Shown here one piece after another: positions 1-21,115 of a stretch of 23,457 nucleotides of DNA. Numbering within the stretch: the first letter of the stretch is position 1; each line of letters starts with the position of its first letter. This DNA comes from a virus, in the IMG/VR virus record IMGVR_UViG_3300017743_000132, positions 1-23,457 of that record; one strand, given 5' to 3'. Below the pieces are notes generated by a model. That model ran no database searches. It was not told where the DNA came from and worked only from the letters and a program-made list of their open reading frames with translations. The position numbers and the translations under genes are program-made.

Positions 1-1088
1 GTGCATATGACAGTGACAGGGGATATGTAAATGAATCCTATACACTTTATATGATACCTCAAGGTTCAACTGCATATGAAGCTCAATTCATTACACCCTT
101 TACTACAATATTGGGTAACATGATTGCATCTGAAAACTCTCAACTCACCCCCTATCAAGGATGTAGTTCTGAAGGTGAAAGTGTCAGAACAAACATAAGG
201 AGAAATGTAAGTGTCTTTGAGACTGAATTGTACACAGGTACAGGATTATCCTTAGAAGACTTTTACGTTGACTACATTGCAACAGGAGAGACGGATAAAC
301 AACAGATTGCAGAAAGATTGACTGATGTACTCATAGATATATACAAAGTCAAAGATGCATACGTGGGTACTGATTATACTAAATTCCAGTTTATAATTGA
401 AACTAATAGTATAACTACTCTACTATCAACCAACCCTATAACAGACATAGGAGTACAAATAGAAATGTCTTCCGAACCAGTAAGTAATGGTGAATGGGAA
501 TCTAGATATCAGAAAGTATGGAATGTTACAATAAACTATGTAAACGATACAATAGATTCTGCACCTATAACACTAACAGAACTTGACAACTTATCTGTAA
601 CCAATGAAGAAAATTATTCATACTCAGTTATACAAAATACTGATGTCAATCTTATAAATAGTAATACATGGACTTTTAATCTAAAAGACTATGATGGTGA
701 CTATGGTACTTGTTCAGATTGGATGAGGAATGAAAAGATGCACGATGATATGGTACGTCTTGAATTACAGGATTGCACAGGTGAAAATATTACAACCTAT
801 TTTAAATCCCCATACAACACAGTCAACTCATACGTTAAAGAGGATGTAGTCAGTGTACATGAGGAATTATCCTTATTGAATAGAGGAATGAATAACTTTG
901 AAAGTTTAATACTTCCATCCCTAGGTACAGGTGATAGTGTTAACATTACAAAAGTAGTAGGTAATACCATATACTCTTACAACTTTACATATAGTTATGA
1001 AATGTGTGATGTTTGGGTGGATGGTGAGAACACAGAATCAACTTTTGGGTATGATGGATATTTAAACTGTTTGAACTACATGCAGTGA
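1..1088 (+). CDS. Unknown protein, 5'-truncated at the window edge
   Basis: I do not recognise this protein. The frame has an ATG at base 51, but it stays open without a stop back to base 3, and those upstream codons look like ordinary coding sequence, so the true start most likely lies outside the window; 361 residues are visible. The protein is rich in Asn, Thr, Ser and Tyr, low in Lys, and has an alternating polar/hydrophobic pattern suggesting beta-sheet. I see no signal peptide, membrane segment or catalytic motif. Near the C terminus there is a Tyr/Asn-rich stretch ending in a paired Cys region. Composition and position just before a late-type block would fit a virion or fibre-like protein, but that is inference. 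A TATAAATA inside it (653-660) is probably a chance match. Confidence 0.75.
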   Translation, partial: AYDSDRGYVNESYTLYMIPQGSTAYEAQFITPFTTILGNMIASENSQLTPYQGCSSEGESVRTNIRRNVSVFETELYTGTGLSLEDFYVDYIATGETDKQQIAERLTDVLIDIYKVKDAYVGTDYTKFQFIIETNSITTLLSTNPITDIGVQIEMSSEPVSNGEWESRYQKVWNVTINYVNDTIDSAPITLTELDNLSVTNEENYSYSVIQNTDVNLINSNTWTFNLKDYDGDYGTCSDWMRNEKMHDDMVRLELQDCTGENITTYFKSPYNTVNSYVKEDVVSVHEELSLLNRGMNNFESLILPSLGTGDSVNITKVVGNTIYSYNFTYSYEMCDVWVDGENTESTFGYDGYLNCLNYMQ

Positions 1089-1089
1089 T

Positions 1090-1266
1090 ATGAACAAGAA
1101 AAAACACATTAACAACGTTATAACGACAATCAACAAAAAGATTATCTTAAAACGAAAACTGAAAGAAGCTAAGACACAAAAGGATGATGCAATGGTTTCT
1201 TTTTATCAAAAACAAATTCAAGAAATAAACGAGAAACTTGCATCTCGACCACTTATAAAAACATAA
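1090..1266 (+). CDS. Small basic coiled-coil-like protein (58 aa), unknown
   Basis: A short open frame fills the space between its neighbours. The ATG lies one base after the upstream TGA, and the stop falls inside the late-promoter-like element that precedes the next gene. The 58-residue product begins MNKKKHINNV and is Lys/Gln-rich, with a central stretch (about residues 20-50) of charged and Gln residues on a heptad-like pattern that could form one long helix. No motif or family is recognised and there is no clear ribosome-binding site. It is kept as a gene because it exactly fills the gap and its codon use matches the neighbours (GCA for Ala, AAA/AAG for Lys). It is too short for most gene-calling cutoffs. 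Confidence 0.5.
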   Translation: MNKKKHINNVITTINKKIILKRKLKEAKTQKDDAMVSFYQKQIQEINEKLASRPLIKT

Positions 1267-1269
1267 ATA
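1262..1269 (+). promoter_or_regulatory. Late-promoter-like element CATAAATA
   Basis: CATAAATA matches the T4 late-promoter element (TATAAATA) in seven of eight bases. By T4 geometry the transcript would start about 6 bases downstream, near 1275, leaving a leader of roughly 22 bases before the ATG at 1297. It overlaps the stop of the 58-aa gene. Similar octamers also occur inside genes at 653 and 17517, so the match alone is weak; the position supports it. Confidence 0.5.
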
Positions 1270-1296
1270 GTAGACAAACAGGTAAAGTTTACTATT

Positions 1297-2502
1297 ATGG
1301 CAGTTAAGAATCTACATTTAGAACATCTCGAAGACGAAATCATTAATAATGGAATTGATGGTGGAAGAGCAGCTATCAACTTCCTTCGTGGTCTTCGTGA
1401 CATGATGAAGGGAAACTCCAAGAAAGGAGTCAACATGACTGTAAAGTGGGATGGAGCTCCTGCTATATTCTGTGGTCTACATCCCGAAACAAATCAATTC
1501 TTTGTTGCAAAGAAATCACTCTTCAACAAGGAACCTAAATACTACACTTCCGAACAACAAATCAAAGATGCAGATGAACTAAGTGGAGACTTAGAAACAA
1601 AGTTCATTGAATCATACAAACACTTATCTAAACTAACATGGACTAATGTCATGCAAGGTGACTTGATGTTTACAGAGTCAGATAAGAAAGAAAAGAACAT
1701 CGATGGTACACAATGTATCACATTCCAACCCAACACTATCTTATATGCAGTAGACAAAACTTCTCAGTTGGGTCTAACTATTGATGATGCAAAATATGGT
1801 ATTGTGTTTCACACTACTTACAGTGGTGACACTATAGAAGACCTATCTGCATCATTCGGTGCATCCACTAGTTCATTAGGTTCAAACAGAGATGTGTGGA
1901 TAGATGATGCATCATATAAAGATGAGAGTGGTAAGTCATCAATGACTGCAAAAGAAACACTTGAACTTTCCAAACACCTTACACTATCGGGTAGAAACTT
2001 TCATCAGATAAAAAGAAAAGACTTGACTAAGTTCAATAAAGTCCAACAAGAATTTGCAAACAAAGGTATGGTAGGTGCATCATATAAGACATACTGTAAT
2101 TCAATGATTCGTACTGGTAAGTACAATCCTACTACATTAGGATATCTAAAACACGTAGAAGATAAGTGGAATGCAAAAATTAAAACATACAAACAAGAAA
2201 AAACCAAACAAGCAAAAACTGAAATCAGAGACCAATTACTGAGAGAACTAAAATCAATCAAGAGAATGATTGATGGACTCACTGCATTCCAAAAAGGTTT
2301 GATGGATGCAAAACAATCAATCATCGTTGCACTCAACAGAGTTAAGGGTATTGGTACTTTTGTAAAAACTGATACAGGATACAAGGTAGTAAACCCCGAA
2401 GGATACGTTGCAATTGATAGAGATGGTAAAGCTGTCAAGTTAGTAGACCGTATGGAATTCTCACTAAATAACTTTACAGTTGCAAAGAACTGGGACAAAT
2501 AA
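1297..2502 (+). CDS. Ligase-superfamily nucleotidyltransferase-like protein (KWDG motif)
   Basis: A 401-aa protein that I believe belongs to a marine-phage family catalogued as DUF6267 (number from memory). It has what look like the collinear motifs of covalent nucleotidyltransferases (DNA/RNA ligases, capping enzymes): motif I K50-W-D-G53, with Lys50 the candidate AMP-accepting residue; a motif III-like GDLMF at 121-125; a motif IIIa-like GIVFH around 168-172; motif IV E368-G-Y-V; and motif V VKLVDR at 380-385. The distance from motif III to IV is unusually long, filled by a Lys-rich helical insert at about 215-350. If functional it would bind ATP and modify a nucleic-acid end. It overlaps by one base the nucleotidyltransferase/kinase fusion, an arrangement suggestive of a repair or salvage pair. 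The fold assignment is by motif only and the substrate is unknown. Confidence 0.6.
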   Translation: MAVKNLHLEHLEDEIINNGIDGGRAAINFLRGLRDMMKGNSKKGVNMTVKWDGAPAIFCGLHPETNQFFVAKKSLFNKEPKYYTSEQQIKDADELSGDLETKFIESYKHLSKLTWTNVMQGDLMFTESDKKEKNIDGTQCITFQPNTILYAVDKTSQLGLTIDDAKYGIVFHTTYSGDTIEDLSASFGASTSSLGSNRDVWIDDASYKDESGKSSMTAKETLELSKHLTLSGRNFHQIKRKDLTKFNKVQQEFANKGMVGASYKTYCNSMIRTGKYNPTTLGYLKHVEDKWNAKIKTYKQEKTKQAKTEIRDQLLRELKSIKRMIDGLTAFQKGLMDAKQSIIVALNRVKGIGTFVKTDTGYKVVNPEGYVAIDRDGKAVKLVDRMEFSLNNFTVAKNWDK

Positions 2503-3812
2503 TGAAAGAGTTTAAATCATTTATATCAGAAGCAAAAAGTAAACCAGCAGTGTTTACTTTTGGTCGTTTCAATCCACCTACAAACGGACATGAAAAACTT
2601 GTAGACCAAATGGTCAAAGTGTCTAAACAAGTAGGAGGGGAACCCATCCTGTTCTCATCACACTCTAGTGACAAAGTAAAGAATCCACTTACACATAAAG
2701 ACAAAGTCAAATTTTTAAAATCATTCTTTGGTAGAAAAGTAAACGTAGTAAACGAAGACGTAAAACAGATATTTCAAATACTAGTGTTCTTATATGACAA
2801 AGGATACAGAAACATAGTTATGATTGTAGGTTCAGATAGGATTGCAGAATTCAAAAACATAATAACAAAATATAACAGTGTAAAAGGTAGACATGGTTTC
2901 TATAAGTTTGATGACATTTCAGTTGTATCAGCAGGAGAGAGAGACCCCGATGCAGATGATGTAAGTGGGATGTCTGCATCTAAGATGAGAATGTTTGCAG
3001 AGAAAGGTGACCTTGAGTCATTCACAGAAGGTGTTCCATCTTCAGGTAAGAGACTTGCAAAGAAATTATACAATGCAGTAAGAAAGGGAATGGGTATCAA
3101 AGAGGTTACACAATTTCCAAAGTATATGATTGATGACATGTTGAATGAAGGACTGTTAACTGAAGGAGTGTACGACCAAGGTATCTTCAAGGCAGTGTTC
3201 CTCATGGGTGGGCCAGGTTCAGGTAAGTCAACTGTGGTTGATAAACTTGCACTACCATCACTAGGTTTAAAACTAGTAAACACTGATAGAGCATTTGAGA
3301 ATGGTTTGAAGAAAGCAGGTATGTCATTAGATTTAAGAAAAGCATCTGATGATGACTATGCACCTATCAGAGCAAAGGCAAAGAAGATTACAGGTAAACA
3401 AATGGGTGCATATATCAATGCAAGATTAGGAATGATATTTGACACTACAGCTGCAAAGAAATCTAAGATTCAAGATTACAAAGATTTACTAGACCAAGCA
3501 GGATATGAATATAAAATGGTCTATGTAAAAACATCACTTAAGAATGCACTCAAAAGAAATCAGATGAGACCAAGAAAACTCAGAGACGACATAGTCATAA
3601 ACGATTGGAATAATGCAGAGAAGAATGCAAAACAATTTAAACAGATGTTTGGAAGAGACTTCATTGAAGTAGTCAATGACGATGACCTTGCATCATTAGA
3701 TACAAAGGTAAACAAACTGTTTGGTAAAGTCATGACATGGGCATCTAAGTTCCCTACAAATGATAAAGCACAAGATTGGAAACAATCAGAACTCACCAAG
3801 AAAAAACGATAA
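2502..3812 (+). CDS. Nucleotidyltransferase / P-loop kinase fusion with capsid-targeting-like N terminus
   Basis: A 436-aa two-domain protein. Residues 1-11 (MKEFKSFISEA) resemble the capsid-targeting peptide of T4 internal proteins (MKTYQEFIAEA). Residues 15-170 are a cytidylyltransferase-like (Rossmann) nucleotidyltransferase: FGRFNPPTNGH gives the TxGH motif at T27-H30, and MSASKMR at 157-163 corresponds to the ISSTxxR motif. Residues 230-420 are a P-loop kinase-like domain with Walker A G236-GPGSGKST (Lys242). The domain order is that of NadR (NMN adenylyltransferase plus ribosylnicotinamide kinase), so NAD salvage is possible, but residues that fix substrate specificity cannot be judged here. 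Between the domains lie LNE216/G and LTE221/G, both fitting the T4 prohead-protease consensus. The start codon overlaps the previous stop by one base. Confidence 0.75.
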   Translation: MKEFKSFISEAKSKPAVFTFGRFNPPTNGHEKLVDQMVKVSKQVGGEPILFSSHSSDKVKNPLTHKDKVKFLKSFFGRKVNVVNEDVKQIFQILVFLYDKGYRNIVMIVGSDRIAEFKNIITKYNSVKGRHGFYKFDDISVVSAGERDPDADDVSGMSASKMRMFAEKGDLESFTEGVPSSGKRLAKKLYNAVRKGMGIKEVTQFPKYMIDDMLNEGLLTEGVYDQGIFKAVFLMGGPGSGKSTVVDKLALPSLGLKLVNTDRAFENGLKKAGMSLDLRKASDDDYAPIRAKAKKITGKQMGAYINARLGMIFDTTAAKKSKIQDYKDLLDQAGYEYKMVYVKTSLKNALKRNQMRPRKLRDDIVINDWNNAEKNAKQFKQMFGRDFIEVVNDDDLASLDTKVNKLFGKVMTWASKFPTNDKAQDWKQSELTKKKR

Positions 3813-3815
3813 ATA
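3808..3815 (+). promoter_or_regulatory. Late-promoter-like element GATAAATA
   Basis: GATAAATA differs from the T4 late element only in the first base and overlaps the stop codon of the fusion gene. Five bases separate it from the ATG at 3821, so T4 spacing would put the transcript start on the A of the start codon. No Shine-Dalgarno sequence is present between them. Confidence 0.5.
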
Positions 3816-3820
3816 GTATT

Positions 3821-4462
3821 ATGTTAGATTTAATTAGAGAAAAGATAAAGACTGCACAAGACAAAGATGTCGAGGACAAGAAAGGTACCCAACCTAAAAG
3901 ATACTACGCTGCAGATGCAGATGGTGATAAGATGTCTAAGAAGACAAAAGATAAACGTGCAGCTCATTTTGCAAAGAATTCTAAAAAGGACGATGATGAC
4001 TCAAGTGCATATAAGAAAGCACCAGGCGATGCAAAGGCAGACACTAAACCATCACAGTACACTAAACAATACAAGAAGATGTTCGGTGAAGAACAATACA
4101 CAGACTTAGACGAAGGAAAACTCGTAGGTAATACAGGTTTCATTATAGACACTCTTGCAAAAATGGTAAAGAGAGAAGTCGGTAAAGAGATGAGCTCAAG
4201 TAGAGAAAAGGGTGTAGTGTTAATGAACAAGATTGCACGTATGGTAGGTGCAAGTGTATCAATGTCACATAAAAGACCAACTACAGACTTATTCATTAAA
4301 TCAAGTTATGCATTCATAAATGACGGTGAAAACGTTGACGAAGAATGTTGGGACACACACATGCAAAAAGGTATGAAAAAGAAGGGAAACAAGATGGTTC
4401 CTAATTGTGTACCCAAAGAAGATAAGGATGCAGATAAAAAAATTAAGAAGGAGAAAAAATGA
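3821..4462 (+). CDS. Lysine-rich marine-phage protein with C-terminal CW...VPNCVP module
   Basis: A 213-aa, very Lys- and Asp-rich protein beginning MLDLIREKI. An in-frame ATG exists at 3776, but it would overlap the previous gene and precede the promoter-like element at 3808, so 3821 is preferred. Residues 1-90 are low-complexity and charged. Around residues 95-165 there is a better-folded segment following the sequence DLDEGKL. The C terminus has CWDTHMQKGMKKKG followed by VPNCVP, a module I know as common in cyanophage and pelagiphage small proteins; its function is unknown. IREK near the N terminus and LDEG near residue 100 fit (I/L)-x-E prohead-protease sites. There is no membrane segment. 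The gene is joined to the next by an ATGA overlap. An internal head or DNA-associated protein is a reasonable guess. Confidence 0.7.
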   Translation: MLDLIREKIKTAQDKDVEDKKGTQPKRYYAADADGDKMSKKTKDKRAAHFAKNSKKDDDDSSAYKKAPGDAKADTKPSQYTKQYKKMFGEEQYTDLDEGKLVGNTGFIIDTLAKMVKREVGKEMSSSREKGVVLMNKIARMVGASVSMSHKRPTTDLFIKSSYAFINDGENVDEECWDTHMQKGMKKKGNKMVPNCVPKEDKDADKKIKKEKK

Positions 4463-5379
4463 GTGGTAATAAACACGACAATGGTGTACATGAGATAGGT
4501 ACATCAGAAATGAAAAATGCATATATGGAAGATACTCCAGGCCAAATGGTTGAGAGATACATCAAAGAAGCAAAAAAGAAAAATGATGATGTAAAACAAA
4601 AGTTACACTTTAGTCAGAAGTTTGATAATCCTTTGAAAGGTTTCCCATATAACGAATCAGTAGAGGTTGATGAAGGTGCATTCTATGGTAGAGATGATTT
4701 GGTAAAACAATTTGCACCCACTAAAGCACAGAAAAAACTCAATGTCAGATTAGTTAAAAATGACAAAAAGGGATACTCACGTGCAACTTTAAACATCAAG
4801 AAAGACAAGAAGAAGATTGCACAACTTAAGAAGGATGGGTATAAAGTAGACCCAACATACTACACTGAAGAATACATAGAAGAAGATGTTATGAGTTTTC
4901 TTTCAGTTGCACTACCAGCTTATATAGCAGTAAATACAGTCGCACTTGTAGGTCTTATAGCATCCGAAATGGCAGGAATTGATATTATTGGTAAAACTGA
5001 AAAAGCAATAGAAAACATAAAAAGTAAATTCAAAAGAAATAAAAATTATAAACCTTCAAATAGTGAACTAGAAACTCTTAAAAAAGTTGGTCAGGAAATT
5101 AAAAAGAAAGACCCCAGTGCATATAAAAAGGCACAACAAAAAGTAAACAGCATGAAAGAATCTTTTGAACCTCTAGAAGAAGATTCATTCGATGACAAGT
5201 CAAAGAAAAGTGGTATCAGTGTTGGTGTACTTAAGAAAGTATATAAACGTGGAGTCGCTGCATGGAAGACAGAACATAGGCCTGGTACAACACCTGAACA
5301 GTGGGGTCATGCAAGAGTGAATGCATTTATTGTCAAGAAGAAAAAAGGTAATTTAAACCACGACAAGGACTTAGCATGA
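4459..5379 (+). CDS. Marine-phage protein with central hydrophobic segment and C-terminal DUF5824-like domain
   Basis: A 306-aa protein started by a good AAGGAG site and an ATGA overlap. Residues 1-140 are charged and contain YIKEA at about 34-38 and VDEGAF further on. Residues 145-180 (beginning MSFLSVALPAY) form one or two hydrophobic helices, probably membrane-inserted or buried. A basic linker follows, then a C-terminal domain at about 250-300 with KKVYKRGVAAW, the segment HRPGTTPEQWGHARVN, and a basic tail. I recognise this last domain as the widespread marine-phage domain I recall as DUF5824 (number to be checked), function unknown. Several (I/L)-x-E sites, such as IKE/A, IEE/D and LEE/D, separate the segments, so the product may be cut during head maturation. 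This is inferred from pattern only. Confidence 0.7.
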   Translation: MSGNKHDNGVHEIGTSEMKNAYMEDTPGQMVERYIKEAKKKNDDVKQKLHFSQKFDNPLKGFPYNESVEVDEGAFYGRDDLVKQFAPTKAQKKLNVRLVKNDKKGYSRATLNIKKDKKKIAQLKKDGYKVDPTYYTEEYIEEDVMSFLSVALPAYIAVNTVALVGLIASEMAGIDIIGKTEKAIENIKSKFKRNKNYKPSNSELETLKKVGQEIKKKDPSAYKKAQQKVNSMKESFEPLEEDSFDDKSKKSGISVGVLKKVYKRGVAAWKTEHRPGTTPEQWGHARVNAFIVKKKKGNLNHDKDLA

Positions 5380-6956: not shown

Positions 6957-7526
6957 ATGAGTTATAAATCAGAAAACTGGAAAGAAAAACTAGAACAAGT
7001 CCGTGGACACATAACTTTCAAAGAAGGTAGTGTAGAGAAGACAGCTGACGACATCTTAAACGAAGAGATAGAAAACGAACTAACCACTGGATTTGAAGAA
7101 GATTCACTTCCTGAATTAGATGACGTAGAAGTAATTCTAGAGGCATCTGCTGGTGGAATGATTGATAAGTTATTCAATCTCAAGGGTGATAAAGATTCAC
7201 AATACGGTGTTGCAAAGATGTTATCTATGACTGGTGTCAAAGTAGTCCAGTCAATGCAGAAACAAAATCCACAAGGATTTGCAAAGTTAGTTGCACAATT
7301 AGGTAAAGAGAAAAAGATTACATTACCTACCAACAACAAACTAATGAAAATGTTCAAAGATGCTGGTGTAAAACCTCTTCCTGAGGAAACCGAAACACCC
7401 GAAAAAACTATAGAAAAACTAACAGAAAGAAACATGTTAGGTAGACTTGCAAAACAATTACATTTAACAAAGGAAGGAAAGAGGAAAATGTTCAAGTACT
7501 TCGAAGAGGGGAGAGAAAATGATTGA
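6957..7526 (+). CDS. Unknown acidic/helical protein of the late block
   Basis: A 189-aa protein beginning MSYKSENWKEK. The N-terminal third is strongly acidic (ILNEEIENEL, EEDSLPELDDVEVILEASAGG). From about residue 65 it becomes amphipathic and helical, with repeated Lys/Leu/Gln segments (VQSMQKQNPQGF, KLVAQLGKEKK, GRLAKQLHLTKEGKRKM). ILE/A at about 60-63 fits the (I/L)-x-E cleavage pattern and would separate the acidic N-terminal part from the basic helical part, as expected for a head protein with a removable acidic piece. No enzyme motif is recognised. It is the first gene after the promoter-like element at 6941 and overlaps the next gene by 8 bases. Confidence 0.65.
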   Translation: MSYKSENWKEKLEQVRGHITFKEGSVEKTADDILNEEIENELTTGFEEDSLPELDDVEVILEASAGGMIDKLFNLKGDKDSQYGVAKMLSMTGVKVVQSMQKQNPQGFAKLVAQLGKEKKITLPTNNKLMKMFKDAGVKPLPEETETPEKTIEKLTERNMLGRLAKQLHLTKEGKRKMFKYFEEGREND

Positions 7527-7842
7527 TGAACTAACCAAATCATTAATTTTAACATCACGTGATATCTTAGAGGGTAAGAAACTTGACCCTGTAGGAAAAG
7601 AAGACGGTGATGTCGATAATGACGGAGACAAGGACGATTCAGATAACTATCTTGCAAAGAGAAGAGAAGCTATTGGTAAGGCAATGAATGACGAAGGTAA
7701 TGAATTCACTAAAGCACTTTCAGATGCAAGAAAAAACGGAGATAAAGACTTCGTAGTATCAGGTAAAAAGTACACATGTTCAGAAGTAGAAGACTACGAA
7801 GCTGACATGAAGAAGAAAGAGAAACTCAAAGAGAACGACTAA
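7519..7842 (+). CDS. Small protein with EF-hand/dockerin-like calcium loop
   Basis: A 107-aa acidic protein. Residues 25-42 contain DPVGKEDGDVDNDGDKDDSD, whose D-x-D-x-D-G core spacing and later acidic residues match EF-hand or dockerin calcium-binding loops; only one loop is present. I recall the phrase DPVGKEDGDVDNDGD followed by YLxKRRxAIGKA from many marine phage proteins. The N terminus is a short helix with ILE/G at about 17-20, a possible prohead-protease site. The C-terminal half has a short beta segment (FVVSGKKYTCSEV) and a charged helix. It overlaps the upstream gene and shares TAATG with the next. Calcium binding is inferred from the loop; its role is unknown. Confidence 0.7.
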   Translation: MIDELTKSLILTSRDILEGKKLDPVGKEDGDVDNDGDKDDSDNYLAKRREAIGKAMNDEGNEFTKALSDARKNGDKDFVVSGKKYTCSEVEDYEADMKKKEKLKEND

Positions 7843-8597
7843 TGAACCTATTTCACGAAGCAAAAAAAGTTTTAGATACAGACGGAAAGGTAAACCCCTT
7901 AGGCCCGTATGGAAGACAGAAGTTAACAGGTAGAGAAATATCTACTTATTTCCGTAGGAATCCTGTTAAAGATGCAAACTTAAAGAAAGCAGTGCAAGTT
8001 GCACTTGATTTAGGTGGTGCAGATTCTATTGCTCGAAAAGAAATCAAAAGTTTTTACGGTGATAAAATTCTCAAAGCAAAAGAAGTACAAAATGCATTAC
8101 AATATGCAAACGAATCAGTAAATCTAGGTGAGAACTACAGGACTGCAGCTAGACATGGTATGGGTACTGAAGGTAAGAAAGAGGCAAGAGTCGGTTTAGA
8201 ATTAGACTATTACGATAAAACTGGTACAAAGTACATGGGTAAAATCGTAAAGAAAGATTCAAAAGGTTACACAGTCAAAGATGACAAAAGTGGTAAGATG
8301 CATACGTTTGTCTATCACGACAGAATCAAGGCAAGAAAATTCTTACAGAAAGTTGGTGAAGAAGGTGATGCAGAAGCCAAAGCAAAATTAAACCTTAAAC
8401 ATGTGCAAGACATGGAGAAGTTAAAGGGTAAACAGACAAGAGAAAAAGAAAATATGTCTGAACACAAAAATATTTTAGATGCTTACAAACAAATGTGGGA
8501 AGATGGTGTGAAATATGCACCTATAGATGAGAACATGGAACGGAAAATCATGTCTAAGATGAGAAAAGGAAAAGCACCTAAAGGAATGCCGAGGTAA
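7842..8597 (+). CDS. Multi-segment marine-phage protein with SH3/KOW-like middle and LDAYKQM motif
   Basis: A 251-aa basic protein beginning MNLFHEAKK. Residues 1-95 are helical (TGREISTYFRRN, LKKAVQVALDLGG). Around 115-168 there is a beta-rich section (ARVGLELDYYDKTG, KYMGKIVKKDSKGYTVKD, MHTFVYHDRIKA) that resembles a small SH3 or KOW barrel, a fold often binding RNA or protein. A charged helix follows, then NILDAYKQMWED at about 209-220, a motif repeated in the next two genes. The C terminus is short and basic (MRKGKAPKGMPR). No active site is visible. It is coupled to the upstream gene by TAATG and ends 3 bases before the next start. Function unknown; a packaged head protein is one possibility. 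Confidence 0.65.
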   Translation: MNLFHEAKKVLDTDGKVNPLGPYGRQKLTGREISTYFRRNPVKDANLKKAVQVALDLGGADSIARKEIKSFYGDKILKAKEVQNALQYANESVNLGENYRTAARHGMGTEGKKEARVGLELDYYDKTGTKYMGKIVKKDSKGYTVKDDKSGKMHTFVYHDRIKARKFLQKVGEEGDAEAKAKLNLKHVQDMEKLKGKQTREKENMSEHKNILDAYKQMWEDGVKYAPIDENMERKIMSKMRKGKAPKGMPR

Positions 8598-8600
8598 CTT

Positions 8601-9293
8601 ATGGCAAAGATGTCTAAAGAAATGCCACTAAAGGTTTTCTCTAAGAAAGTTGGTATCGATAAACAAGAGCAAGAGTGGATTGAAAAGAACGATAAAGACA
8701 CTCACTACTACAACAATAGTGCATTAAAAAACGAATGGTTATCACTAAGTTATCCTATTTACGATGGTGATTACTATTTTGCATTTGTTAACGATAAGGT
8801 AAGAGTCAACGCACAGGCAAATGCAAAAGCAAATAGAAAACTTAGAGAACTTACGACATCATTTTTAGATGCAGAAGCTATATACAAAGAAATGTACCAG
8901 TTTTTCCAAATGCAATTCAAACAACACGGTAGTAGTGATACTATGACTAGAGAAGAACTTTGGAGAGCAGTTTTAGATATCAGAAAGAAAAATCCTGCAC
9001 CTAAAAGAGAAGTAAAAGAATCAGTGATGGATGCATACAAAACAATGCATGAAACAACTCTTAAAGAAGAGATGATTACTTACAGAGTAAAGGGAATGCA
9101 GAAACCCGAAGAACAAAAATTCATTCGTTCTGCAAAAATGATGGGTCTAAAGATTACTATGGACAAAGGTAAGAAAGATACAGTAATCGTTATGAGTGGA
9201 ACTAAGAAGAAACTCAGAGACTTTGATGCAATTGCAAGAGGTAAATCATCATATGGTGACCCTTCAACAATAACACACTTTGACGAGAAGTAA
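8601..9293 (+). CDS. Marine-phage protein with MDAYKTMHE motif and C-terminal RVKGMQKPEE module
   Basis: A 230-aa protein. Residues 1-120 form a mixed alpha/beta region (WLSLSYPIYDGDYYFAFVND) followed by long helices. The motif MDAYKTMHE appears near 142-151 and is followed by LKEEMITYRVKGMQKPEEQ and a compact C-terminal module of about 70 residues with KMMGLKITMDKGKK, VIVMSGTKKKLRDFD and a conserved tail (GKSSYGDPSTITHFD). I recall this C-terminal module from other marine T4-like phages, attached to different N-terminal parts. It looks like a small two-layer alpha/beta domain with no obvious catalytic residues. The upstream ribosome-binding site is weak (GAGG). Function unknown. Confidence 0.65.
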   Translation: MAKMSKEMPLKVFSKKVGIDKQEQEWIEKNDKDTHYYNNSALKNEWLSLSYPIYDGDYYFAFVNDKVRVNAQANAKANRKLRELTTSFLDAEAIYKEMYQFFQMQFKQHGSSDTMTREELWRAVLDIRKKNPAPKREVKESVMDAYKTMHETTLKEEMITYRVKGMQKPEEQKFIRSAKMMGLKITMDKGKKDTVIVMSGTKKKLRDFDAIARGKSSYGDPSTITHFDEK

Positions 9294-9294
9294 T

Positions 9295-9762
9295 ATGAGA
9301 GATTTACTAGAAACATACAAACAAATGCATTTAGATGAGATTCAACAAAAAGAAGTTGACTCACTAAAAAGACTATCTAAAGATATGCAAGCAGTTCTAA
9401 AAGGTTATCAGAAGATTGCACGTATGGGTGACAAAGAACTTACGAACATGAAATACAATAAAGATTATGAAGCTGTTCTTAAGGCAAGAGACGTTATCTT
9501 GACACTCATTGGTAAAGTAAACACTCAAAAGATTCTCAACAAAGAAGAGACAGTAAAGGACTTAGACGAAGCACCAAAGATGAAGAAAATTTCTATCTAT
9601 GGTTCAGAAATATCAGGACTAAAACGTTCCAATGGAAGTAAACTAGGAACGTATACTGCTAAACCTGTAATTCTTAAAGGTAAGTTAGCATTCAGAGTCC
9701 AAGATGACAGTGGTTCATTTGAAACACTTGACCTTAAATCTTTTGCAAAAATGTACGGATAG
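9295..9762 (+). CDS. Marine-phage protein beginning with YKQMH motif
   Basis: A 155-aa protein. A TTG exists in frame at 9280, but it lies inside the upstream gene; the ATG at 9295, one base after that gene's TAA, gives MRDLLETYKQMHLDE, placing the shared motif at the N terminus, and is preferred. Residues 15-75 are helical and Lys-rich. DLDEAP near 98-103 fits an (I/L)-x-E site, after which comes a small beta domain (KKISIYGSEISGLKRS, LGTYTAKPVILKGKLAFRVQDDSGSFETLDLKSF) that looks like a compact barrel. No enzyme motif is visible. It belongs to the same run of co-oriented small proteins. Function unknown. Confidence 0.65.
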   Translation: MRDLLETYKQMHLDEIQQKEVDSLKRLSKDMQAVLKGYQKIARMGDKELTNMKYNKDYEAVLKARDVILTLIGKVNTQKILNKEETVKDLDEAPKMKKISIYGSEISGLKRSNGSKLGTYTAKPVILKGKLAFRVQDDSGSFETLDLKSFAKMYG

Positions 9763-9764
9763 AC

Positions 9765-10358
9765 ATGAAAAAAGAAAAGAAAACAATGACTGTACAAGAA
9801 GTAGAAAAACTTATGACTACTGATGCACGATTTAAAGTTTTCAAAGAGAAGTTAAAAAAACTTGGTTATGTTAAGAAGAACATGGCAGAAGTTAGACAGA
9901 TTATGGAAATAATCTCAGACTTCGGTATGATGTCAGATGCTGGTAACAAAAAGATTGCACGTGCAGTATCACAGTCAAAAAACGAAAAAGATTTAAGAGC
10001 TAAAATCCTTAAGATATCTACAATGGCAAAGGGTAAGTATGCTGAGGCAGATGAGGATGAAGTTATTAATAGAGCTTTAGATGCTTTACAATCAAAAGCA
10101 AAAGGAGTTCAGAACAGACCCGATGCATCAATGTTGATGCAACTTAGAAAGTTTAAAGACGGTACTAAGGACGGAGAAGTAAGAACAGATGACATGAAAA
10201 AGACTAAAGTCAGTAATGCAGATGCAGTCAAAGTTCATGACACTTTAATGAAGGTTAGAGCACCTGTTCGTACTAAATACTTACAACTATTACAAAAGGA
10301 TACAAAGTCATTCAATAAAGCATTTAACGCTATATTGAGAGTATCCAAATCAAATTAG
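9765..10358 (+). CDS. Lysine-rich helical protein, unknown
   Basis: A 197-aa basic, almost wholly helical protein beginning MKKEKKTMTVQEVEKLMTTD, starting 2 bases after the upstream stop. Visible pieces are an N-terminal helical segment, a Met-rich stretch (MEIISDFGMMSDAGNKK), an acidic patch (EADEDEV) near 90, a charged middle and a C-terminal helix-rich part (RAPVRTKYLQLLQKDTKSF). The basic character and lack of cysteine would suit a DNA-associated or internal head protein. Unlike several neighbours it carries no clear N-terminal (I/L)-x-E site. No family is recognised and no membrane or catalytic motifs are seen. Confidence 0.65.
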   Translation: MKKEKKTMTVQEVEKLMTTDARFKVFKEKLKKLGYVKKNMAEVRQIMEIISDFGMMSDAGNKKIARAVSQSKNEKDLRAKILKISTMAKGKYAEADEDEVINRALDALQSKAKGVQNRPDASMLMQLRKFKDGTKDGEVRTDDMKKTKVSNADAVKVHDTLMKVRAPVRTKYLQLLQKDTKSFNKAFNAILRVSKSN

Positions 10359-10921: not shown

Positions 10922-11359
10922 ATGAAAAATTTTAAAGAATACATTTCTGAAAACATGGTAGGATATCAAGGTGCGGGGTTATCTTCGCACAAGGTTCCTC
11001 ATGACTTAGAAGACTCAGATGTAAAAAACACCATCAATGCAATTCTAGGACACACTGCAGTGTCAGAATTCTTGAATCCAAAAGCTGCAATTGCACAAAT
11101 CGAAGCAAAACTTGCACTGTTAGGATTAAACAGAGAAGAAGTTGTATCTGATGACCCACGAGTAGATGGGACTGAAGGTGACGAACTAACTGAAAACGGT
11201 GAGTTTGAGATTCCTTTTTCACGATATGGAAACATCATCGGTAAAACTGTAGACACACCTATCGATGAACTAGAAACAGAGTCAGTCATCTACAACGTTA
11301 AAGTAAAGTACGAGCAATTAGAGAACGGTACATACAAAGTTTACGGTAGTTTAGTATAA
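10922..11359 (+). CDS. Protein with capsid-targeting-like N terminus, unknown
   Basis: A 145-aa acidic protein beginning MKNFKEYISENMVG. The first ten residues match the layout of T4 internal-protein targeting peptides: Met-Lys, aromatic, then (F/Y)-I-x-E, with cleavage expected after Glu10. The remainder has a helical section (VKNTINAILGHTAVSEFLNPKAAIAQIEAKLALLGL) followed by an acidic linker and a beta-rich end (EFEIPFSRYG, VIYNVKVKYEQLENGTYKVYG). No enzymatic motif is evident. It starts 2 bases after the Ig-like gene and is the last gene before a 12-bp hairpin that overlaps its stop codon, so it probably ends the late unit. Packaging in the head is inferred from the N terminus. Confidence 0.65.
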   Translation: MKNFKEYISENMVGYQGAGLSSHKVPHDLEDSDVKNTINAILGHTAVSEFLNPKAAIAQIEAKLALLGLNREEVVSDDPRVDGTEGDELTENGEFEIPFSRYGNIIGKTVDTPIDELETESVIYNVKVKYEQLENGTYKVYGSLV

Positions 11360-11767: not shown

Positions 11768-12384
11768 TGCCAAATAGAATGATAGACTCACTAATAGTTT
11801 TCAGAATACTGAAGATGTTAGTAACACCCTTTAAGAAGACACAGGCATATAGGTTTGGATTTATTGATGAGAAAGGAAATAGAATAAAGACACTACCCGA
11901 CCCCACAAATCCACAAATAAAAATCGAGAACAACCCGAAGACGGGTGAAGAAAAGAATTCATTAACACCACTACATAGATTGGTGTTCAACCTAAAGAAA
12001 CTGATAGAGAAAGTTCCTTTTGGTAAATCACAATTAGCTTCCTATGCAGTTGCACTTGCACTGTTAAAGGAACACTTTGAATTAGACGACATACAGGCAG
12101 ATATCCTGTGTGAAGATTTTTATAGACACCTCAAAGATACAGAGGCATTAACCCCCGAGACAATCGCAGAAGGGGTCGAGGTTGGTAAACTAAACCTAGG
12201 TTCTTACAAGTTAAGAAGACAGTTGAAACAGAACGAAGATGTAGATTCATATAGTTTTATAGTCTATCCTGAGAAGACAGACATAGAAGTAGTTGCAGAA
12301 CACTCTATAGTGTATGGACTAAGTGTATATGTCGGTTTCATCGGAGAAGAAAGAGTATTGGTAACAGAAGATGATGTTTACTGA
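11767..12384 (+). CDS. Conserved marine-phage protein, unknown function
   Basis: A 205-aa protein beginning MPNRMIDSLIVFRILKMLVTPF. Marine T4-like phages commonly carry a homologue directly after the previous gene, as I recall, so the pair is probably a functional unit. It shows an N-terminal hydrophobic helix, a variable Pro/Asn-rich loop (residues 45-65), a helical core (PLHRLVFNLKKLIEKVPFGKSQLASYAVALALLKEHF), and a C-terminal beta-rich part ending IGEERVLVTEDDVY. No nucleotide-binding or metal site is seen. The stop lies inside the next gene (14-base overlap). A structural or assembly role is possible but unsupported by motif. Confidence 0.7.
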   Translation: MPNRMIDSLIVFRILKMLVTPFKKTQAYRFGFIDEKGNRIKTLPDPTNPQIKIENNPKTGEEKNSLTPLHRLVFNLKKLIEKVPFGKSQLASYAVALALLKEHFELDDIQADILCEDFYRHLKDTEALTPETIAEGVEVGKLNLGSYKLRRQLKQNEDVDSYSFIVYPEKTDIEVVAEHSIVYGLSVYVGFIGEERVLVTEDDVY

Positions 12385-13264
12385 GAGTAAAGATTGGGAC
12401 AATATATCTTACGATAAGAAAGAGAATCTCAAACAACCTAAGTATGAAAATATAGAGTTGTTTGATGATAACTGGAAAGACATAAAGTTACCCGAACCCC
12501 CAAAGAACAGTTCACCTGAGTGTCTACAAGACTTCAAAAGAACTAAACGTACATCTCTAAATGTTACAGAAGAACAAAAAGAACAGTATAAATTGTGTGA
12601 CGAAGATTCATCACACTTCATCAAGAAATATCTTGATGACAATAATCTTGAATACGAAGACGATAGAATAGAATACATTGAACAACAATGTGTACCCATC
12701 GTCAGACACTTCAAGATGCACTACAATAGAATTCGTCCATATCAATTTGCAAAGTTGATAAACGATGAGTATGAAAGATTTGTGACAGACACTGCAAAGA
12801 CACCATCATACCCATCAGGACACACAGTACAACCCTATGTTGTTGCACTATACTATGGAGGTCAGTATCCCGACCATAAGGAAGGGTTACTAAAGGGAGC
12901 AGATATATGTGCATATGGTAGGGTTCTCGCAGGGTTACATTATGTAACCGACTACAAAGCTGGCATAACACTCGCAGAAGGGTTATACGACCATATGGTA
13001 CCCGAGGTGTTTGATGAAGATGCACCTATCAACTCTACAGGGGCAGCTGTTTCGACAGACAAACCTGTAGTGAGACGTAAGAAACATTCTGTAGACAACA
13101 GAATATTTAAATTAATGACAAGAAACCCCTTGCAAAAAGTGGTTGCAGAAGGTATAATAGATGATACACTTTTGAAATTGGATTTGGATAGAGGACGAGA
13201 GGTTGTCCTTGAAAACAGTCTCACAAAAGAAATAGAAATTATATCGTATGCAAGGAAGTCTTAA
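12371..13264 (+). CDS. PAP2-superfamily (acid phosphatase / haloperoxidase-like) phosphatase
   Basis: A 297-aa protein with all three PAP2 signature motifs in correct order: K115-x6-R122-P123, P148-S-G-H151, and R184-x5-H190-x3-D194 (the usual Ser before Arg184 is Gly). His190 would be the phospho-accepting nucleophile and His151 the general acid. There is no signal peptide and no run of membrane helices, so it is a soluble, cytoplasmic or virion form rather than a lipid phosphatase. Residues 1-100 are an acidic, Lys-rich extension, and about 75 residues follow the domain (basic RRKKHS linker, then a short beta tail), neither recognised. Two adjacent ATGs (12371, 12374) could start it. The substrate is unknown; phosphate scavenging or nucleotide turnover are possibilities. 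Confidence 0.8.
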   Translation: MMFTESKDWDNISYDKKENLKQPKYENIELFDDNWKDIKLPEPPKNSSPECLQDFKRTKRTSLNVTEEQKEQYKLCDEDSSHFIKKYLDDNNLEYEDDRIEYIEQQCVPIVRHFKMHYNRIRPYQFAKLINDEYERFVTDTAKTPSYPSGHTVQPYVVALYYGGQYPDHKEGLLKGADICAYGRVLAGLHYVTDYKAGITLAEGLYDHMVPEVFDEDAPINSTGAAVSTDKPVVRRKKHSVDNRIFKLMTRNPLQKVVAEGIIDDTLLKLDLDRGREVVLENSLTKEIEIISYARKS

Positions 13265-14075
13265 ACATCTTAACTGGTTAGCACTAGGTACTGCAATAGG
13301 TATCGCAGGGATAGCTGCATGGTTCTCAGTATTGGGACTTGCAACTATGTTCAGTGGTGCATGGTTGTCCGTGGTAATCATGGCAGGGTCTTTAGAATTT
13401 GGTAAGTTAGTAACTGCAGCTTATCTACACTTGCAGTGGGATAGATTAAATTACATGAAATACTATTTGACTACTGCAGTCGTAGTGTTAATGTTGATTA
13501 CGTCATTGGGTATATTTGGGTTCCTTTCAAAAGCAAACATTGAGACAACACTTACGGGTGATTCGTATACACTTGAAATGTCTATCATAGACAAGAGAAT
13601 AGAAAGTAAAGAATCACAACTTGCAAGACTAGAACAGAGAGTTACAACACTTGACCAAGTGATAGAAACTGCAAGACCTCAAGATAGAAATTACATCGAT
13701 GGAAGACAAAGAGAAGAAAGACAACAGATTGCATCTGATGTTGACCTCATAATCGATGACATAGTAAAACTCAATGAAGATAAACTACCCCTTCAAAGAC
13801 TAGAATTAGAACAGGAAGGTGAGATTGGCCCTATCAAGTATGTTGCAGAAGTAATATACGGACAAGAGAATGCCAAAGACTATCTAGACAATGCAGTAAG
13901 GTGGGTCATATATGCAATTATATTTGTGTTTGACCCTCTTGCAGTATTATTACTCATAACTGCAACAGGATTACTTGCAAATCCAGCAGGTTCACACCCA
14001 AGACCCGTAATCAAGAAAAAAACCTCATTATTAGTACCAAAAGAAAGAATAAGTGACTTTACAAAAAACAGTTAA
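13248..14075 (+). CDS. Four-helix membrane protein with central coiled coil
   Basis: A 275-aa integral membrane protein. Hydrophobic segments are at about 8-33, 37-60, 72-95 and 217-244. Between the third and fourth is a 120-residue charged coiled-coil region (IIDKRIESKESQLARLEQRVTTLDQVIETA...) that also holds Arg/Gln-rich segments. The last 30 residues are basic (PRPVIKKKTSLLVPKERI). I recall similar proteins in marine T4-like phages but not a function. The layout, a helical stalk between membrane hairpins, would suit a membrane anchor or sensor, for example an inner-membrane effector for superinfection exclusion or replication-site tethering; this is speculation. The start overlaps the phosphatase by 17 bases and there is no strong ribosome-binding site. 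Confidence 0.75.
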   Translation: MQGSLKHLNWLALGTAIGIAGIAAWFSVLGLATMFSGAWLSVVIMAGSLEFGKLVTAAYLHLQWDRLNYMKYYLTTAVVVLMLITSLGIFGFLSKANIETTLTGDSYTLEMSIIDKRIESKESQLARLEQRVTTLDQVIETARPQDRNYIDGRQREERQQIASDVDLIIDDIVKLNEDKLPLQRLELEQEGEIGPIKYVAEVIYGQENAKDYLDNAVRWVIYAIIFVFDPLAVLLLITATGLLANPAGSHPRPVIKKKTSLLVPKERISDFTKNS

Positions 14076-18688: not shown

Positions 18689-19763
18689 GGTAGACTTCAC
18701 AAAGGAGAAGATGTTCTTTGGTGAACCATTGAACACACAAAGATTTGACGAGTTCAAATATCCAGTATTTGATAAACTAACACAAACACAGTTAGGATAC
18801 TTTTGGAGACCCGAAGAGGTGTCTCTACAGAAAGATAGAAATGACTTTCAATCACTAAATGAAGCACAGAAACATATCTTTACATCAAACTTAAGATATC
18901 AAACATTACTAGATTCAGTACAGGGTAGAGGCCCTGCTATTGCATTCTTACCATTTGTTACACTTCCCGAGTTGGAGGGTGCAATGGTGACATGGGACTT
19001 TATGGAAACTATCCATTCACGTTCTTACACTCACATGGTAAAGAATCTATATGCAAATCCAAGTGAAGTGTTTGACACTATCGTAGATGAACCTGCTATC
19101 CTAAAACGTGCAGAGGCAGTTACAGAAAGATATGACAAGTTTATCGAGATTGGTAGACGTAAATTACTAGGTCTTAAAGTAGATGAGTATGAGTTATACA
19201 AAGCATTGTACCTTGCAATGATGTCAGTGAACATCTTAGAGGGTATCAGATTCTATGTGTCGTTTGCATGTACATTTGGATTCGGTGAACTCAAACTAAT
19301 GGAAGGGAGTGCAAAGATTATATCATTCATTGCAAGGGATGAAGCACAACATCTTGCAGTGTCTACACACATCATCAAGAACTGGCAGAAACATGAGAAC
19401 GACAAGATTATGACTAAGGTCATAAAAGACACTGAAGAAGAAGTGTATAAAATGTTCAGAGATGCAGTCGACCAAGAGAAAGAGTGGGCAGAGTTCTTAT
19501 TCGAGAAGGGAAGTATGATTGGTCTATCTGCACCATTGTTAGGTAAATACGTAGAGTGGATTGCAAATAGAAGACTTAAGGGAATAGGTTTAAAACCTAT
19601 ATATGATATACCAGCAACAACTAATCCACTACCATGGACAGAACACTGGTTGAGAAGTAAATCATTACAGAATGCACCACAAGAGACAGAGATTGAGTCT
19701 TATGTAATTGGTGGAATAAAACAAGATGTTAGTGATGACACATTTAAGGACTTTACACTATGA
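18666..19763 (+). CDS. nrdB: Class Ia ribonucleotide reductase, beta (radical) subunit
   Basis: A 365-aa subunit holding the di-iron centre and tyrosyl radical. All ligands are present: Asp83, Glu114, His117, Glu192, Glu226 and His229, with radical Tyr121 (SRSYTHM), within one residue of E. coli numbering for the first four positions. The start is a TTG: the next ATG (18711) has a good AAGGAG site, but the TTG start gives an N terminus TIFNRNKVDFTKEKMFFG that aligns with T4 NrdB (STVFNTNPVDVLNEPMFFG) and has GAGG 8-9 bases upstream. The ATG at 18711 would remove this conserved segment. The C-terminal tail (VSDDTFKDFTL) should dock on NrdA. It overlaps the oxygenase gene and, by ATGA, the cytochrome gene. 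Confidence 0.96.
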   Translation: MTIFNRNKVDFTKEKMFFGEPLNTQRFDEFKYPVFDKLTQTQLGYFWRPEEVSLQKDRNDFQSLNEAQKHIFTSNLRYQTLLDSVQGRGPAIAFLPFVTLPELEGAMVTWDFMETIHSRSYTHMVKNLYANPSEVFDTIVDEPAILKRAEAVTERYDKFIEIGRRKLLGLKVDEYELYKALYLAMMSVNILEGIRFYVSFACTFGFGELKLMEGSAKIISFIARDEAQHLAVSTHIIKNWQKHENDKIMTKVIKDTEEEVYKMFRDAVDQEKEWAEFLFEKGSMIGLSAPLLGKYVEWIANRRLKGIGLKPIYDIPATTNPLPWTEHWLRSKSLQNAPQETEIESYVIGGIKQDVSDDTFKDFTL

Positions 19764-20197
19764 AAGGATATATATTTAGTATTTGTTTAATGATGGTTGG
19801 GACTATTGCATTAGCATACAACAACCTAGAATACAGTGGTTACCCACGAAACACTTCATGTACAGGAGAATGTTATGAAGAGTATGTTTCTATATACGGT
19901 ACACCATCAGAGATAGAACGTGCAAAACAAGAACTTGCATCTGCAGATGAATTTAGTTCTATCAGAAGTTTATGGGCAGGTTGTGCAGCTTGTCATGGAA
20001 TGGAGGGACAAGGTATGGCAGTCTTTCCAAAACTTGCAGGTCGGTCATCTGATTACATAGTAGATAGATTGACGACTTATAAGAACAGGGGTACCGTAGG
20101 TGCAATGAGTTCCACAATGTGGGCCCAGGCAGCTATGTTATCAGAAGAAGAAATTGACACTATTGGTAGGTTCATAGGAGAAACCTTGAACGACTGA
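19760..20197 (+). CDS. Exported monohaem cytochrome c
   Basis: A 145-aa protein with an N-terminal signal-like segment (residues 1-19, KGYIFSICLMMVGTIALA) and one haem-attachment motif, C75-A-A-C78-H79, in the typical context LWAGCAACHGMEGQG. A class I cytochrome c fold follows (FPKLAGRSSDYIVDRLTTYKNRG); Met120 in STMWAQAAMLSEEEI is the likely sixth ligand, with Met116 an alternative. Such proteins carry electrons in the periplasm and need the host Ccm haem-ligation machinery. Residues 20-65 form an N-terminal extension with a Cys pair (C34, C38) that may form a disulphide. It overlaps nrdB by ATGA, so it is made with the RNR. It is an unusual phage cargo gene; it could feed host respiration during infection. 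Confidence 0.88.
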   Translation: MKGYIFSICLMMVGTIALAYNNLEYSGYPRNTSCTGECYEEYVSIYGTPSEIERAKQELASADEFSSIRSLWAGCAACHGMEGQGMAVFPKLAGRSSDYIVDRLTTYKNRGTVGAMSSTMWAQAAMLSEEEIDTIGRFIGETLND

Positions 20198-20668: not shown

Positions 20669-20810
20669 TAATCAAAATCTAGATATAGTATGTTCAGAGT
20701 GTGAAGGACAATTTCAAGTTAAACATAACATGGAAGGATTAGAATATGAACCAATGTTTTGCATCTTCTGTGGTTACACACTACATGACGATGACATAGA
20801 AGAAAAATGA
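20661..20810 (+). CDS. 49-aa zinc-ribbon protein
   Basis: A very short gene bridging its neighbours, overlapping upstream by 8 bases and downstream by ATGA. The product has two CxxC knuckles, C11-S-E-C14 and C34-I-F-C37, 19 residues apart, the spacing of a zinc ribbon, with an acidic tail (HDDDIEEK). The middle (GQFQVKHNMEG) would form the ribbon strands. Zinc ribbons of this size usually bind nucleic acid or act as an adaptor; binding of a Fe-S cluster instead is possible given the adjacent A-type carrier. No ribosome-binding site stands out apart from translational coupling. Confidence 0.75.
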   Translation: MADNQNLDIVCSECEGQFQVKHNMEGLEYEPMFCIFCGYTLHDDDIEEK

Positions 20811-21115
20811 TAGAAGTCACCGACACTGCAATTCAGAAACTAGTAGAACGTAATGTTCCTAGAATCAGACTTGGTGTGACAGGTGGTGGTTGTGCTGGAT
20901 ATGAATATATCTTTGCAGAAGACATCTTAAGAGAAGGGGATGAAGTAATTGATTACGGTAAGTTCTCCTTTGTCATAGACGAAAACAGTCGACCATTCTT
21001 AAATGGTATGACTTTAGATTACGTCAAAGAAGGGTTAAACGAGTTTTTTAAATTCCTAAACCCAAATGAACAGTCTGCATGTGGTTGTGGTGTCAGTGTA
21101 CAATTTAAGTCATGA
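20807..21115 (+). CDS. A-type Fe-S cluster carrier (IscA/ErpA/HesB family)
   Basis: A 102-aa protein of typical family length. The three cluster-binding cysteines are Cys29 (GVTGGGCAGYEY), Cys92 and Cys94 (SACGCGVSVQF), with the same spacing pattern as E. coli IscA (C35, C99, C101). Such proteins receive a 2Fe-2S or 4Fe-4S cluster, or iron, and pass it to apo-enzymes in the cytoplasm. The family is known in some marine phage genomes and viromes, where its target is unclear. Here it sits among iron proteins: upstream nrdB and a haem c protein, downstream a 2OG-Fe(II) oxygenase. It is joined by ATGA overlaps on both sides. Which member (IscA, ErpA, SufA) cannot be decided, so no symbol is given. 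Confidence 0.9.
   Translation: MIEVTDTAIQKLVERNVPRIRLGVTGGGCAGYEYIFAEDILREGDEVIDYGKFSFVIDENSRPFLNGMTLDYVKEGLNEFFKFLNPNEQSACGCGVSVQFKS

Follow-up and report, generated by a model that had tools for sequence, protein, structure and literature searches.

In bacteriophage T4, a short N-terminal capsid-targeting sequence (CTS) marks internal proteins for the head: ten residues suffice for packaging of IPIII, targeting depends mainly on residues 4 and 7 and processing on residues 8 and 10, and the prohead protease gp21 cleaves after L/I-x-E (PMC9026906). T4 also packages an enzyme, the ADP-ribosyltransferase Alt, which gp21 processes at both ends (PMC9026906). This CTS biology is already known, as is the presence in cyanophage virions of a nucleotidyltransferase (NTase) homologous to the enzyme described here. 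The latter is encoded at 2502-3812 (+ strand) of IMG/VR virus record IMGVR_UViG_3300017743_000132, of which we analysed positions 1 to 23,457 (hereafter the window, 23,457 nucleotides). The open reading frame, ORF436, encodes a two-domain enzyme of 436 amino acids and opens with MKEFKSFISEA. We are fairly confident that this peptide is a working capsid-targeting sequence and that the enzyme is packaged by means of it; the enzyme is very probably particle-borne, and not produced solely in the infected cell, because the same peptide starts related enzymes found in purified virus particles.

A T4-type peptide at the start of a two-domain enzyme

ORF436 starts with an ATG at 2502 that shares bases with the preceding gene's stop codon (TAATG); this start is supported because orthologues keep the peptide that follows it. 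The T4-type capsid-targeting-like peptide MKEFKSFISE↓A (arrows mark prohead-protease cuts or cut-like sites) takes up codons 1-11 (2502..2534, + strand), with a predicted cut after Glu10 (codon 2529-2531). In the T4 record the N terminus of both ipII and ipIII is MKTYQEFIAEA, with which ORF436 shares 6 of 11 residues (positions 1, 2, 7, 8, 10 and 11) plus a Tyr/Phe pair at position 4, just as an earlier note on this DNA had counted. That note had also placed the peptide on IPI, IPII and IPIII alike, which is inexact, since IPI starts MKTFKEFTSTTTPVSTITEA and not with the 11-mer, its [LI]xE↓A site coming later; the first seven residues of IPI, MKTFKEF, are also similar to the MKEFKSF of ORF436. 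Given the N-terminal composition of the window, at least six identities would arise by chance with P = 1.9e-4 per gene, that is, 0.007 times in the 36 window genes. For a motif derived from the T4 rules, chance predicts 0.015 occurrences in the same genes; there are two, at 2502 and at 10922 (MKNFKEYISEN). The residues of ORF436 that match T4-critical positions are F4, F7, I8 and E10, to which A11 may be added, and in an AlphaFold2 model residues 1-12 have predicted local distance difference test (pLDDT) values below 50.

Behind the peptide, profile searches recovered the two-domain fusion that the earlier note had read. The first domain, an adenylyl/cytidylyltransferase (residues 12-199; 2535..3098, + strand) with FGRFNPPTNGH and SGMSASKMR motifs, scores above the cut-off for Pfam PF01467, the CTP_transf_like match covering residues 19-124. 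The second, a P-loop kinase (about residues 223-436; 3168..3812, + strand) with the motif GGPGSGKS, matches AAA_33 (2.6e-13) and Zeta_toxin (1.2e-8) over about residues 230-396.

Conservation of the peptide in orthologues

The peptide is kept across orthologues of three marine T4-like phage groups. Within the window clade, Glu10 is invariant in an alignment of 24 orthologues, which have 56-92% identity to ORF436. All 80 of 80 cyanophage orthologues read MKxF(S/N)AFLxEA, and their 15 distinct peptide forms are invariant at positions 4, 7, 8, 10 and 11, with variation at position 9. Melnitz-like phages have MKxF(S/K)(E/D)(I/L)xEA, and 62 of their 66 copies match the motif that we had fixed before the S-CREM2 test described below and then left unchanged; the remaining four fail the regular expression solely through an MI start. 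Taking all distinct orthologues with a readable tag, the P1 Glu is fixed, P3 is L, I, F or V (usually Leu or Ile), and P2 is the most variable position. Such variability at P2 within an otherwise fixed motif fits a protease site, whereas a folded helix offers no reason for it. For the C48C1 enzyme (11998-13407 in its locus) the annotated start, 12064, falls after the tag, and an upstream in-frame start gives (V/M)IKNFSQYLLEEE. The earlier note had held that its proposal would fail if related phages kept the enzyme and lacked the peptide; we met no clear case of this among the window-clade and cyanophage orthologues, and the search that it suggested for the same N terminus in marine T4-like genomes found the peptide in the three groups.

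Tagged homologues in purified virions

Published mass spectrometry (MS) places tagged homologues in the virions of four cyanophages. Purified S-SM1 virions contain the 'citidylyltransferase' T4-GC190 (PMC3037559), whose N terminus is MKKFSAFLNEA. ORF91 of S-SCSM1 and ORF154 of S-CREM2 are virion proteins by MS (PMC9602691 and PMC10665884, respectively) and start with MKSFLQFLKEA and MKNFSSFLTEA, and S-SZBM1_140, the sole enzyme in the S-SZBM1 virion list (PMC9146016), starts with MRFRQFIIEA. The S-SM1 virion list has one other cyanophage core protein, T4-GC15, which was set aside as a tail protein outside the tagged cluster.

The fixed motif occurs on 4 of the 219 genes of S-CREM2 (the S-adenosylmethionine lyase gp6, the kinase-like gp14, gp136 and the NTase gp154), and all four products were detected by MS; with the qualification that some of these N-termini had already been seen when the test was run, though the motif had been fixed earlier, this association is significant (Fisher p = 0.0029; with named structural proteins excluded, 0.00027). 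Two further S-CREM2 virion proteins, gp13 (MKDLHSFLTEQ) and gp15 (MNFSEFNESL), resemble tag variants. In S-SCSM1, genes 89-97 form a syntenic block between MazG and primase, most of which is marked as virion protein.

Two of the S-CREM2 genes deserve separate mention. The lyase gp6 (3837-5081 in its locus; PF23780, 2.3e-19), which carries the tag MKDFDSFLEE and was detected by MS in virions, is a candidate injected anti-restriction enzyme. The virion protein gp12 (7704-10313 in its locus), annotated 'Cas9', has no Pfam match, and a tag-like FASFMAEA lies at about its residues 19-26, so its start or its gene name may be wrong.

The peptide on unrelated proteins and the candidate protease

We scanned the loci of the window clade, HTVC008M, Melnitz, C48C1 and S-SM1 for the fixed motif. 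Of their 1,753 genes, 75 have it at the N terminus, where shuffles give 0.9; of 9,027 internal methionines, 3 are followed by it. When a variant one residue shorter is also allowed, the tagged genes number 120 and belong to 13 families, where shuffles give 1.5 genes (maximum 5). The enzyme's own family (62 genes) is over-represented because the loci were collected through the enzyme; about ten other tagged families remain beside it, and in both C48C1 and Melnitz several consecutive genes are tagged. The same reuse is found within a single virus here, where a second window gene (10922..11359, + strand; 145 amino acids) starts with the MKNFKEYISEN given above, 27 of 31 members of its family having the motif; its product has no Pfam or PHROG match.

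In one family the tag is a removable prefix. The gene preceding ORF436 (1297..2502, + strand) encodes a DUF6267 protein (PF19782, 8.6e-99) that starts MAVKNLHLEH and is untagged here, as in the rest of the window clade, whereas Melnitz-like DUF6267 proteins start MIDFSNFLTEDKGGKNLHLEH (MIDFSNFLTE↓DKGGKNLHLEH). Farther afield, two adjacent proteins of Agrobacterium phage Atu_ph07 (locus 252-4084) start MKWNDLNEA and MRWEQLNEN, which suggests that jumbo phages, too, may have the tag system.

A gp21-type protease was not found in the 23 kb window, a fragment without head genes, and is present (PF03420) in five of seven longer contigs of relatives. Reading cut positions by analogy with T4, the gp23 precursors of relatives have LSE↓A, LDE↓A or LGE↓A near residue 50, and their gp22 N-termini have IAE↓A, IQE↓A or LLE↓A. 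ORF436 contains the gp21-type site, L/I-x-E followed by Ala or Gly, as ISE↓A at residue 10 and as LTE↓G at residue 221.

A second cut-like site between the domains

The latter site lies in a flexible interdomain linker (3099..3167, + strand) that reads LNEG-LLTE↓GVYDQGIFKA and thus offers both LNE216↓G and LTE221↓G (Glu221 codon 3162-3164). Neither this site nor the tagged gene at 10922 was mentioned in the earlier note. The pattern [LIV]xE[AGS] occurs at three sites only in ORF436 (10, 216 and 221), all of which fall within the AlphaFold2 segments of pLDDT below 50 (1-12 and 200-222). Among 46 distinct orthologues the interdomain E-G is invariant, P3 is L in 25, I in 20 and V in 1, and P2 takes at least eight residues. 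Stand-alone kinases start with a short peptide that ends at the equivalent place (Melnitz MKTFAELQE↓GVYD, HTVC008M MIPFILKE↓GLYD), and in the Atu_ph07 protein that starts MKWNDLNEA the same kinase is fused, after VTE↓G, behind a domain that by eye looks like an ADP-ribosyltransferase. The simplest reading of these alignments would be that a tagged kinase gene became fused behind the NTase, with its cut site retained. The conserved [LI]xE↓G site between domains appears to be new.

We put the chance that this cut splits the enzyme into two domains inside the head at about even. A possibility to be taken seriously, if one short of likely, is that the peptide is a capsid-targeting sequence and the domains nonetheless stay joined, E221-G222 being conserved for kinase folding and not for cutting. 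The G-V-Y-D after Glu221 is invariant and could reflect kinase structure instead of cutting, and similar residues recur in the stand-alone kinases and in the Atu_ph07 fusion, as they would at a domain boundary. That account fits less well with a P3 that is Leu or Ile (Val once) and a P2 that is most variable, which match the N-terminal site, with the Melnitz kinase, whose tag ends exactly there, and with the disorder of the segment in the model.

Enzyme folds and candidate delivered functions

By fold the NTase domain resembles PPAT (Z up to 14.7) and NadD (Z about 13.6); that is, it has the HxGH-type Rossmann adenylyltransferase fold, although the motif of ORF436 reads TNGH, not HxGH. The closest fold match of the kinase domain is Clostridium polynucleotide kinase (Z 16.5, root-mean-square deviation 2.8, 165 residues), and the domain's fold and Walker A motif GGPGSGKS make it a polynucleotide 5'-kinase-like P-loop protein. 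A sequence search of Protein Data Bank (PDB) chains with the enzyme gave weak matches only (best E 0.02), adenylate and shikimate kinases for the most part, and a profile search gave no match.

Two delivered functions were weighed. The first, somewhat doubtful in our view, is that an NAD(H)/CoA-type adenylyltransferase and a kinase restore nucleotide cofactors, for example against an NAD-depleting defence. The resemblance to PPAT and NadD points this way, one cyanophage homologue is annotated NMNAT, and NAD+ rebuilding by phages against NADase defences is known. Membership of the NadR family (NCBIfam TIGR01526) was nevertheless rejected at 26.6 bits against a cut-off of 341, the likeness being one of domain order only; ORF436 fell below the cut-offs of the other NMNAT models, PADLOC gave no defence-system match, and the kinase is nearest to a polynucleotide kinase, which sits poorly with a cofactor role.

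The second function, which we consider unlikely, is nucleic-acid end repair, in which the kinase would heal 5' ends and the neighbouring DUF6267 protein would seal them. Besides the polynucleotide-kinase match, DUF6267 has invariant ligase-like motifs, KWDG, EG-VA (EGYVA) and VKLV (VKLVD), and its fold weakly matches T4 Rnl2 and other RNA/DNA ligases (Z 4.3-4.9); being conserved beside the NTase, it is a candidate polynucleotide ligase. Those fold matches are weak, however, and Foldseek found no ligase match at E <= 0.001. Two further points are unfavourable: DUF6267 of the window clade has no tag, and the kinase was not found in the cyanophages in which NTase and DUF6267 are neighbours.

Packaged cargo or carry-over

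Several observations weigh against packaging by the tag. A looser motif, written after the sequences had been seen, gives p = 0.084 over all S-CREM2 genes; in S-SCSM1, one of two motif genes was detected and the association between motif and MS detection is not significant; and the motif is missing from many virion proteins. A sub-clade of the window clade has Phe at P3 (MKTFRSFNEA), HTVC008M gp130 (MKTLKELLRKK) is without the cutting Glu, and neither the S-CREM2 nor the S-SCSM1 authors decided between cargo and carry-over contaminant for the enzyme (PMC10665884, PMC9602691); we saw no targeting signal named in their papers. Such carry-over, in which a normal early or middle enzyme of the cytoplasm adheres to virions in purification and its peptide is a conserved amphipathic helix of structural or regulatory use, has in its favour that those authors named it as possible, that peptide counts are low (three in S-CREM2, two in S-SZBM1) and that the enzyme genes adjoin replication genes (DNA polymerase, primase-helicase, NrdAB), but we judge it improbable given the independent detection in four phages, the absence of replication enzymes (polymerase, NrdA, primase) from the proteins marked as virion components in S-CREM2 and S-SCSM1, the predicted disorder of the peptide, its presence on unrelated families and as a detachable prefix in DUF6267, and its greatest variation at P2 of the protease site.

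Packaging by a T4-type peptide, the proposal of the earlier note, is thus well supported by the tagged homologues in virions of four cyanophages, by reuse of the peptide and by its protease-site-like conservation. We propose that this marine T4-like phage makes ORF436 as an internal head (ejection) protein. Its N-terminal peptide, acting like the capsid-targeting sequence of T4 IPII/IPIII, would bring the enzyme into the prohead core, where a gp21-type prohead protease would then trim the peptide after Glu10; the same protease would probably also cut after Glu221 (or Glu216), freeing the adenylyltransferase-fold and polynucleotide-kinase-fold domains in the head. Delivered along with the DNA, both enzymes would be at work in the cell before phage genes are expressed. 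Packaging, both cuts and ejection are what we infer for this uncultured virus.

More widely, the targeting peptide and the prohead protease may form a general enzyme cargo system in marine T4-like phages, with a fused NTase-kinase polyprotein split in the capsid and anti-defence or metabolic enzymes arriving with the genome, a generalization that we offer tentatively and hold to be nearly an even call. The shared T4-type address label supplies a mechanism for an enzyme that several proteomic studies detected in cyanophage particles and some could not sort into cargo or contaminant, and with the tag one can predict, from sequence alone, the enzymes that a phage would carry in its head, such as the S-CREM2 lyase and kinase-like protein. 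Three points appear to be new: the link between the T4 CTS and a virion enzyme, its occurrence across T4-like cyanophages, pelagiphages and methylophages, and the cut-like site between the domains; in the open-licence literature we found no paper applying the T4 targeting sequence to cyanophages or pelagiphages.

Other genes of the window

A small protein at 7519..7842 (+ strand) has a calcium-loop-like DxDxDG module, DPVGKEDGDVDNDGDKDDSDNYLAKRREAIGKAM, with 68% identity over 41 amino acids (1.3e-11) to S-SCSM1 gp92, which shares the module and is marked as an MS-detected virion protein; by eye the module recurs in HTVC008M, Melnitz, C48C1 and S-SM1. The module of the gene at 3821-4462, CWDTHMQKGMKKKGNKMVPNCV, recurs in Melnitz and C48C1; weaker resemblances are seen in two virion proteins detected by MS, S-CREM2 gp160 (by eye) and S-SCSM1 gp29. 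Three consecutive genes at 7842-9762 have in common a short motif, internal or N-terminal, of the type (L/M)(D/E)xYKxMxE (NILDAYKQMWED, SVMDAYKTMHET and LLETYKQMHLDE), perhaps another core-binding signal. Elsewhere are a PAP2-like acid phosphatase at 12371-13264 (by eye; KTPSYPSGH...GRVLAGLHYVTD), a small secreted-looking protein at 19760-20197, directly downstream of nrdB, with a CAACH haem-binding motif (cytochrome c-like), and an IscA/HesB-like iron-sulfur carrier with a CGCG end at 20807-21115 (by eye).

Comparison with known systems

The closest described counterparts are T4 IPII and IPIII (MKTYQEFIAE↓A), with which ORF436 has in common the length and spacing of the peptide, the positions required in T4 and the L/I-x-E↓A site, as well as the reuse of the tag on unrelated cargo and a gp21-type protease in the lineage. 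The T4 proteins are small and basic, whereas the cargo here is a large two-domain enzyme with a second cut-like site between its domains, and its processing is predicted. T4 Alt is likewise a head-borne enzyme and a gp21 substrate (for ORF436, both predicted), but its chemistry differs, and ORF436 has its predicted cuts near the N terminus and between the domains, where Alt is processed at both ends.

The cyanophage enzymes annotated 'cytitidyltransferase' or NMNAT (T4-GC190; S-SM1, S-SCSM1, S-CREM2 and S-SZBM1) have a homologous NTase domain, at about 35-41% identity, and the same type of N-terminal peptide, and are MS-detected in virions; they differ in having no kinase domain and, in some, an insert between peptide and NTase domain and another C-terminal part. 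HTVC008M (gp129/gp130) and Melnitz (gp118/gp18) have the same two enzymes as ORF436, but as separate genes. Their kinases have an [LI]xE↓G start peptide of their own (MIPFILKEG and MKTFAELQEG, respectively), and the tag of HTVC008M gp130 is degenerate, without Glu.
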